The position numbers and the translations under genes are program-made. A stretch of DNA of 7,143 nucleotides from an uncultured Mucispirillum sp. (GTDB taxonomy: Bacteria > Chrysiogenota > Deferribacteres > Deferribacterales > Mucispirillaceae), in assembly GCA_945929285.1 (NCBI GenBank), contig CAMEOC010000053.1, positions 1 to 7,143 of the forward strand, given 5' to 3'. A model generated the notes under the pieces. The model saw only the letters and a list, made by a program, of their open reading frames with translations, made no database searches and had not been told where the DNA came from. This document shows, piece by piece, positions 4,465 to 5,723 of this stretch. The first letter of the stretch is position 1; each line of letters begins with the position of its first letter.

Positions 4465-5313
4465 ATGAAAGAAAAAATATTTATGATTATTGTGGTATTA
4501 TTCCTTATTTCCTGTGGTGAAGTTTTTAATAATACTGCTGATTTGGAAGATTCCACAAGTTATGGTTTAGGACTTTATAATGAGCCAATATTAGTAGGCG
4601 ATATAGTAGAAAAAGCTGCTAACGATATATATGTTTCAGGGCAGGATGTGGAAAATAATTTTCCAACTGTTACATTAAAGCCAAATGGCACAACTTTAGT
4701 AAATGGTGCATTATCTCCAATATCTGTTAAACATGCTTCTACCTTTGAAGTAGTTTCTGCCATATCTGATAATATACATGTTATTACTTCCTGCCATACA
4801 GGTTTAGCAAATAATAACTGTATGTCTACTTTTACATATACTCCCAAATGTAACGGCCAGGTGTTTTCAAGGGTTAAATTACAGGCAGATACTGGCGGAG
4901 CTAAAGTTATTAATGTTATAGGTAATGCAGAAAATTTCCCAAAACAATGTGAAAAAGATTTAGATGATAATATAACTATGACAATATCAGATTCACATCA
5001 TCAGTTTAAAAATATAAATGAAATATTTTATTTTTCCATAGATATAGATAAGCCTGCAAAAAACGGATATAAATATAGTGCAAATGGAGCAGTAAACGGC
5101 TTTTACTATTCTTATGAATGTTTTTATAACAATAATAAAAAATGCACTGGTTTTGTAAAATTTACTGGGAAAATAGGGGCATATCAGTGTATGGGAGCAA
5201 CAGAGCTTAATTTAAAAATTAGGGCAGATTATTTTGAAGGGGCAAAATCTGTAAATCTTAATGTAAAAGGTTTTGGCATAGGTAGAGATAAGAACTATAA
5301 ATGCCAGCAATAA
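4465..5313 (+). CDS. Cysteine-rich lipoprotein with a duplicated four-cysteine module
   Basis: A 282-residue predicted lipoprotein of unknown function. The N-terminus MKEK plus a hydrophobic run ends in the lipobox LISC, so Cys17 is the expected lipidated residue and the mature protein is attached to a membrane on the outside of the cell or in the periplasm. Eight further cysteines fall into two sets with similar spacing: 110, 119, 129, 162 and 219, 227, 242, 280. Each third cysteine is followed by a related strand pattern, VKLQADTGGAKVINVIGNA (137-155) against LKIRADYFEGAKSVNLNVKGF (250-270), so the mature part looks like a tandem duplication of a beta-rich, disulfide-bonded domain of about 110 residues. 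No repeat family is recognised. The gene is divergent from msrAB. The ribosome binding site is poor (only GAG at 4456-4458), unlike most neighbours. No terminator is evident before the sigma-28 promoter that starts 5 nt after its stop. Confidence 0.82.
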   Translation: MKEKIFMIIVVLFLISCGEVFNNTADLEDSTSYGLGLYNEPILVGDIVEKAANDIYVSGQDVENNFPTVTLKPNGTTLVNGALSPISVKHASTFEVVSAISDNIHVITSCHTGLANNNCMSTFTYTPKCNGQVFSRVKLQADTGGAKVINVIGNAENFPKQCEKDLDDNITMTISDSHHQFKNINEIFYFSIDIDKPAKNGYKYSANGAVNGFYYSYECFYNNNKKCTGFVKFTGKIGAYQCMGATELNLKIRADYFEGAKSVNLNVKGFGIGRDKNYKCQQ

Positions 5314-5317
5314 AAGC

Positions 5318-5344
5318 TAAATAAATTTTAAAAAATGCCGATAA
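5318..5344 (+). promoter_or_regulatory. Sigma-28 (FliA) flagellar-class promoter
   Basis: TAAA (5318-5321), 15 nt, then GCCGATAA (5337-5344) is an exact match to the core of the FliA consensus TAAA-N15-GCCGATAA. Transcription would start near 5351, so the leader before the ATG at 5400 is about 49 nt. No other GCCGATAA on either strand was noticed in the window, and the GC-containing -10 stands out against the AT-rich background. The gene it drives is therefore expected to be expressed with late flagellar and chemotaxis genes. Confidence 0.8.
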
Positions 5345-5359
5345 GTGTATTAGTAGTAG

Positions 5360-5398
5360 ATATGCAGGGACGCATATTTTTAATGCATGGAGGCATTA
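5360..5398 (+). promoter_or_regulatory. Tandem-hairpin mRNA leader, probable CsrA/RsmA binding sites
   Basis: Two hairpins fill the leader. Hairpin 1: atatgc (5360-5365) with gcatat (5372-5377), loop AGGGAC. Hairpin 2: taatgc (5381-5386) with gcatta (5393-5398), loop ATGGAG. The cores atgcagggacgcat (5362-5375) and atgcatggaggcat (5383-5396) agree at 12 of 14 positions. Both present ANGGA in a six-base loop, the known CsrA recognition form; against RUACARGGAUGU the sites score 9/12 and 8/12 by eye. The GGA triplets are 21 nt apart. The second is part of the Shine-Dalgarno GGAGG (5389-5393), six bases before the start, so binding there would block translation. Two sites with one on the ribosome binding site is the arrangement known for flagellin (hag) mRNA in Bacillus. 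That a CsrA protein exists in this organism is inferred, not seen. Confidence 0.6.
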
Positions 5399-5399
5399 T

Positions 5400-5723
5400 A
5401 TGGATTTATTTATACCTTATATAGCAACAGTAGAGCCTGCAGCACCAGTTGCAGATAGTAAAAATAGTATTTTAAATTATAGTAATTTATCTGTGCCTGC
5501 TCAAAACAGCTTTCAAAAAGTATATTTTGAAGAACTTGCTAGAAAATGTTATGAAGAAAACGGCAATTTTGATAATATTTCAAATATGGCTCGCATTCAT
5601 TATGAAGAATATTACGGTGCAGGAAGCACAAGAGTTAGAAGGTGGAAACTTTATTTTTTTCAATACGGTATAGTTATAAATATTGAAGAAAATAATGGCA
5701 GCCTTTTAATAAAAGCTGCCTAG
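5400..5723 (+). CDS. Unrecognised 107-residue protein under flagellar-type control
   Basis: I do not recognise this protein. The start at 5400 is set by GGAGG (5389-5393) six bases upstream. The sequence opens MDLFIPYIATVEPAAPVA with an Ala/Pro-rich segment (residues 9-18). A probable helix follows (36-53, NSFQKVYFEELARKCYEE), then an aromatic and basic stretch (GAGSTRVRRWKLYFFQYG, residues 73-90) and a short beta-like tail ending LLIKAA. There is one cysteine (Cys50) and no clear signal peptide, lipobox or membrane helix, so it is probably cytoplasmic, or exported by a flagellar-type route if at all. It does not show the sequence patterns I know for FlaG, FlgM, FliW or flagellin. The exact sigma-28 promoter and CsrA-type leader upstream imply a job linked to motility or its switch. 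It is probably monocistronic: the next gene is convergent, 28 nt away. Confidence 0.8.
   Translation: MDLFIPYIATVEPAAPVADSKNSILNYSNLSVPAQNSFQKVYFEELARKCYEENGNFDNISNMARIHYEEYYGAGSTRVRRWKLYFFQYGIVINIEENNGSLLIKAA
5697..5720. terminator. Hairpin at the 3' end of the 107-aa gene
   Basis: ggcagc (5697-5702) pairs with gctgcc (5715-5720), continued inside by tttt/aaaa around a three-base loop with one bulged C. It covers the last codons and ends just before the TAG stop (5721-5723). There is no T-run immediately after it (six T residues come only at 5737-5742), so it may be a weak terminator or a 3'-end stabiliser between the two convergent genes. Confidence 0.4.

Follow-up and report, generated by a model that had tools for sequence, protein, structure and literature searches.

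The leader at positions 5358–5398 of the window, a stretch of 7,143 nucleotides of DNA from an uncultured Mucispirillum sp., very probably has the two-site layout of a flagellin mRNA repressed by CsrA. It is predicted to place the gene that it precedes, encoding a 107-amino-acid (107-aa) protein, under two controls as a late flagellar gene. Judged by its sequence, this gene is likely to be a new target of CsrA, FliW and sigma-28. The original prediction had recognized here the architecture of a CsrA/RsmA-repressed mRNA; the sequence features of the leader, their conservation and the presence of csrA and fliW in the genome support this assignment, CsrA binding itself being predicted.

The leader comprises two hairpins on the forward strand. 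Hairpin 1, the first predicted CsrA site (5358–5379), pairs residues 5358–5365 with 5372–5379 and presents the loop AGGGAC (5366–5371). Hairpin 2, the second predicted site (5381–5398), pairs residues 5381–5386 with 5393–5398 and presents the loop ATGGAG (5387–5392). Both loops are closed by a C-G pair. The two cores, ATGCAGGGACGCAT in hairpin 1 and ATGCATGGAGGCAT in hairpin 2, are identical at 12 of 14 bases, with two positions differing, and the centroid and minimum-energy structures from RNA folding prediction concur on the hairpins. The second GGA (5389–5391), spaced 21 nt from the first, is contained within the Shine-Dalgarno sequence GGAGG (5389–5393, forward strand), four of whose five bases lie in the hairpin 2 loop, the last being paired; 6 nt separate GGAGG from the ATG at 5400. 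Folding and core comparison confirm what had been proposed from the letters of this leader, namely two near-identical ANGGA hairpins with six-base loops, the second GGA being part of the Shine-Dalgarno within the loop of hairpin 2; the interval originally assigned to them, 5360–5398, was correct to within 2 bases. A scan of both strands of the window for ANGGA hexaloop hairpins with stems of at least 4 bp recovered these two and no others. The fold energy of the leader is unexceptional (z −0.93, with 33 of 200 shuffles folding equally well), hence the case for the leader rests on sequence pattern and conservation.

Conservation was assessed in aligned leaders (alignments A6 and A7, which use 15 and 8 leaders, respectively, of the 22 listed, near-duplicates being omitted). 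Both loops read ANGGAN and are closed by a C-G pair in all eight Mucispirillum leaders, the window included. The GGA motifs are 23–24 nt apart in the other seven leaders and 21–24 nt apart over all eight. Two stem pairs are changed on both sides, which, together with the invariant GGA loops, is the pattern that the original prediction had proposed to look for in relatives: in helix 1, the A-U pair at columns 4/17 becomes C-G in four sequences and, in helix 2, the U-A pair at columns 29/40 becomes A-U in three sequences and G-U in one. Of 500 shuffles, 1 attained the covariation score of the 8-leader alignment. The number of pairs changed on both sides (2, against a shuffle mean of 3.1) did not rise above shuffles, and neither did the number of pair types (4, against 4.6 in shuffles), the second of five measures to fall short in this way. 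The covariation follows one split between two clades, amounting to roughly one event per helix. The sister genus (G011) retains the promoter and the Shine-Dalgarno hairpin, UUGAC-ACGGAG-GUCGG; its upstream hairpin has the loop CAGGAC, not ANGGA, and only the Shine-Dalgarno hairpin is clearly conserved there.

The decisive evidence, at the level of sequence, comes from comparison with flagellin leaders. Ten genomes were scanned for a strict pattern (C-ANGGAN-G, 6–30 nt, C-ANGGAG-G), with the reversed pattern as a control; the strict pattern would miss CsrA targets with looser sites. In the window's assembly, itself incomplete, the motif occurs in exactly two places, before a flagellin and before the 107-aa gene. 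Across the eight Mucispirillum genomes, of ten, that carry the gene (G002 and G008, Mucispirillum without it, were left out) there are 18 matches, 8 before the 107-aa gene and 10 before PF00669 genes, two of the latter (L174 and L179) having stems of just 2 bp; the motif was found nowhere else in these eight genomes, and the reversed pattern gave 0 matches. The motif precedes a minority (10 of 38) of the PF00669 matches in the same genomes, so flagellin-like genes do not all carry it. A flagellin gene in the window's own assembly, like flagellin genes in relatives, has this layout, with GGGC-AGGGAA-GCCC followed by CUUAC-ACGGAG-GUAGG on the Shine-Dalgarno. The twin C-ANGGAN-G hairpins, the second on the Shine-Dalgarno, are common to the 107-aa gene and to flagellin leaders of Mucispirillum and other Deferribacterales, whereas the stem letters differ and the GGA spacing before flagellins is 25–36 nt where measured. 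The earlier claim that the leader mimics flagellin control is borne out both by this similar two-hairpin flagellin leader in the same assembly and by the confinement of the motif to the two kinds of gene. Beyond these eight genomes, G010 has one match, before a flagellin. The GC-rich sister-genus genome G011 is noisier, with 7 matches against 2 for the reversed control: a flagellin and a FlaG gene each follow one of them, and the other five have no sizeable open reading frame at the proper distance.

Covariance models gave a more mixed picture. A model built solely from flagellin leaders (R2), run unfiltered, scored the window-type leader highest in 8/8 Mucispirillum loci (15.3–23.9 bits, part of which reflects a Shine-Dalgarno and AUG common to many genes), with a small margin over the next match in one locus (L002; 18.8 versus 16.7 bits). 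In a ninth locus (L010) the second hairpin alone was matched, at 9.3 bits. A filtered search of 12 genomes with R2, nine of them carrying the gene, in which at most 150 first-pass candidates per genome were scored, yielded leaders of flagellins and a few weak sites but, at E up to 1, none belonging to the 107-aa gene. A mixed model (R1) found both leader types, but is no independent test since it was built from both.

In the sister genus, the twin C-ANGGAN-G leader that lies ~150 nt before a FlaG gene (L184, G011:C65:77887–77923; PF03646, E 9e-27) echoes flaG as a CsrA-bound mRNA in Campylobacter. In other Deferribacterales, 10 of 11 flagellin loci (L044–L049 and L063–L067) show, immediately ahead of the gene, an ANGGA hexaloop hairpin whose stem reaches 4 bp or more, which suggests from sequence that CsrA control of flagellin may be common in the order; the stems of these hairpins are diverse, as in UGCAC-AAGGAU-GUGCG of L049. 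One Mucispirillum flagellin gene (L055:446–915, L057, L052, L053 and L051; alignment A9) is preceded by a long conserved region running from promoter-like sites to the start codon, roughly 360 to 440 nt in L055. Upstream of its twin hairpins are an invariant block, AAGAAGATACTGAAACAATCAGGTCGGCATGACGAA, and, in 5/5 of these long leaders, a short open reading frame encoding MRKAIYKIS or a close variant. A search of L055, L057, L052 and L058 gave no Rfam match at E up to 0.5. The conserved region between promoter-like sites and hairpins is thus far longer for this flagellin than in the window's leader.

Upstream of the twin hairpins in the window is the sequence TAAA-N15-GCCGATAA (5318–5344, forward strand), which ends 55 nt before the start codon and resembles a promoter of the sigma-28 (FliA) type. 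GCCGAT and a −35-like box 15 nt away are found in 9/9 orthologous loci, the box being TAAA in five, TAAG in three and TTAA in one. The promoter pattern has 7 matches in the window's assembly against 0 for the reversed pattern, and 64 against 27 over ten Mucispirillum genomes, so that the bare pattern is weakly specific. fliA was found in 11/11 genomes searched; both marks of a sigma-28 regulon member, a FliA-type promoter at the proper distance and fliA in the genome, are thus in place across the nine loci.

The window's assembly, which is 57% complete, also encodes FliA, along with three flagellin-domain (PF00669) matches and a single CsrA gene, immediately upstream of which lies FliW. Absence of csrA, which would have counted against the original prediction, is therefore not what was found. 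A search of 20 genomes placed csrA next to fliW in 17, among them that of the window, and in the remaining three neither gene has a match. The CsrA gives a good alignment to solved chains of CsrA and RsmE. A survey, PMC4682653, already counts Deferribacteres among the groups in which CsrA may be controlled by FliW.

The closest known counterpart is flaA of Campylobacter jejuni. PMC4894983 describes its 5′UTR as 45 nt long and as having two ANGGA stem-loops, of which the second covers the ribosome-binding site; CsrA binds this leader and represses it, and FliW counters CsrA. As in flaA, the leader in the window is a short leader, here of predicted sigma-28 type, whose two stem-loops have ANGGA loops, the second likewise at the ribosome-binding site, and are conserved with compensatory changes, csrA and fliW being in the genome. 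Unlike flaA, the downstream gene encodes an orphan 107-aa protein rather than a flagellin, fliW adjoins csrA, and the CsrA site is predicted from sequence. The same account reports that the C. jejuni flaG, flaB and flgI leaders are bound by CsrA more weakly, their protein levels being hardly altered in a csrA deletion. The hag leader of Bacillus subtilis, as described in PMC7652899, likewise has two CsrA sites (predicted in our case), one overlapping the Shine-Dalgarno, with CsrA and FliW both present; hag belongs to another phylum and is a flagellin gene, and the likeness described here is one of layout. Two GGA sites in predicted hairpin loops, one of them on the Shine-Dalgarno, and csrA together with its antagonist fliW in the genome are marks of this flaA/hag type, and they are found here. 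Moreover, most selected CsrA hairpins have six-base loops, and a single CsrA dimer is able to span two sites separated by 10 to 63 nt (PMC7652899), a range that includes the 21 nt of the window and the 23–24 nt of the other seven leaders.

Because the leader has each of these sequence features, we infer the following course of events. Sigma-28 would transcribe the 107-aa gene once the hook-basal body is complete, as its promoter implies. The mRNA would next be bound by a single CsrA dimer spanning both GGA loops, which are 21 nt apart; this would cover the Shine-Dalgarno and block ribosomes. By analogy with Bacillus and Campylobacter, export of flagellin would free FliW, which would bind CsrA and so release translation, such that synthesis of the 107-aa protein would keep pace with that of flagellin.

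Could the transcript act on CsrA rather than being acted upon? An abundant sigma-28 transcript with two sites might titrate CsrA like a sponge and thereby aid flagellin translation, the protein output being secondary. The C. jejuni flaA leader also titrates CsrA, according to PMC4894983, in addition to being repressed by it, and the window's leader has two consensus-like sites. The 107-aa protein is nevertheless conserved, with 63–79% identity to the window's protein within the genus and 22 invariant columns in 30 sequences, which argues that its output matters; we therefore regard titration as an unlikely primary role. It is compatible with CsrA repression of the 107-aa gene, our main reading, and does not exclude it. 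A switch that works without protein, hairpin 2 masking the Shine-Dalgarno until it melts with temperature or under ribosome pressure, is considerably less plausible: the Shine-Dalgarno does sit in a hairpin, but its GGAG is in the open loop and not the stem, the ANGGA loop is constant while stems vary, and the upstream hairpin and its sharing with flagellins would be left unexplained. Even less credible is that two ATGC-N6-GCAT palindromes, 21 bp apart, act in DNA as operators for a dimeric repressor, and not as RNA hairpins. Although the palindromes are near-identical and about two helical turns apart in the window, their arms vary in relatives (CTGC/GCAG and AAGC/GCTT) while the loop letters stay constant, their spacing varies from 21–24 nt before the 107-aa gene to 25–36 nt before flagellins, and they lie downstream of the promoter and on the Shine-Dalgarno. 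The chance occurrence of hairpins in an AT-rich leader has a negligible claim, since dinucleotide-shuffled windows yield ~1.0 single ANGGA hairpin each but pairs within 60 nt at only 0.0075 per window (3 in 400), and since chance is already contradicted by conservation in 8/8 Mucispirillum leaders and by the restriction of the strict motif to flagellins and the 107-aa gene in eight genomes.

The protein under this predicted CsrA control (5400–5723, forward strand) has no assigned function. It has a conserved N-terminal MDLFIP motif, a low-confidence linker and then a domain of one helix and four strands, predicted in two structure models from overlapping alignments; no confident structural relative was found from the predicted models. 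The gene had been called a non-flagellin gene, which holds: a Pfam search gave no family at E up to 1, the flagellin domain PF00669 included. An NCBIfam search likewise gave no match, and no curated FliS, FlaG or other flagellar family fits. Of 11 genomes, 10 have a FliS of their own besides; the one that lacks it is the window's incomplete assembly. The protein is matched in 9 of 59 genomes, namely the window's, 7/9 other Mucispirillum, 1/5 other members of the family and 0/44 beyond; it is missing from two Mucispirillum assemblies, which are 86% and 75% complete. A wider protein search returned 44 entries, including the window's own and some fragments. Seven relatives of the locus carry a name: six belong to Mucispirillum (M. 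schaedleri, uncultured Mucispirillum and Ca. M. faecigallinarum) and the seventh is an uncultured Deferribacterales bacterium. The gene looks monocistronic, since the next gene downstream is convergent. It is the predicted regulation of the protein, not its sequence, that points to a possible flagellar role. In Campylobacter, a gut bacterium, the Feds (flagellar coexpressed determinants) are non-structural genes expressed with the flagellum from sigma-28 promoters; we know of no CsrA leader among them.

Two further features of the neighbourhood are recorded here. The product of the upstream gene (4465–5313), 282 aa long, resembles a lipoprotein and matched no family above the cut-off; G006 and G007 have a similar-looking gene (281 and 283 aa) upstream. 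Residues 1118–3012 hold a gene that, by its motif, looks like a chemoreceptor. Its frame is interrupted by a shift and by in-frame stops (1855, 2164 and 2242, in the last frame), while in the relative G007 the corresponding frame is open over 671 aa and its start matches.

The regulatory element is itself of a known type, and the novelty lies in its target, a lineage-restricted orphan protein. Under the strict pattern, this leader type is common to flagellins and the orphan and stands before no other gene in the eight Mucispirillum genomes. We suggest tentatively that it marks a Mucispirillum regulon of flagellins plus one lineage-specific protein, which might be a dedicated flagellin partner, or else be exported by the flagellum to serve life in gut mucus; FliW and CsrA would confine its synthesis to the time of filament building, with MDLFIP docking it to the export or checkpoint machinery. 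Our literature search found no experimental work on CsrA in this phylum and no study of CsrA in Mucispirillum; one paper contains both words. CsrA–FliW control is best known for flagellin; the sequence evidence would extend it, in this phylum, to flagellins and one non-flagellin gene whose function is unassigned. An orphan protein of a mucus-dwelling gut bacterium would thereby gain a specific and testable place, at the flagellin checkpoint.
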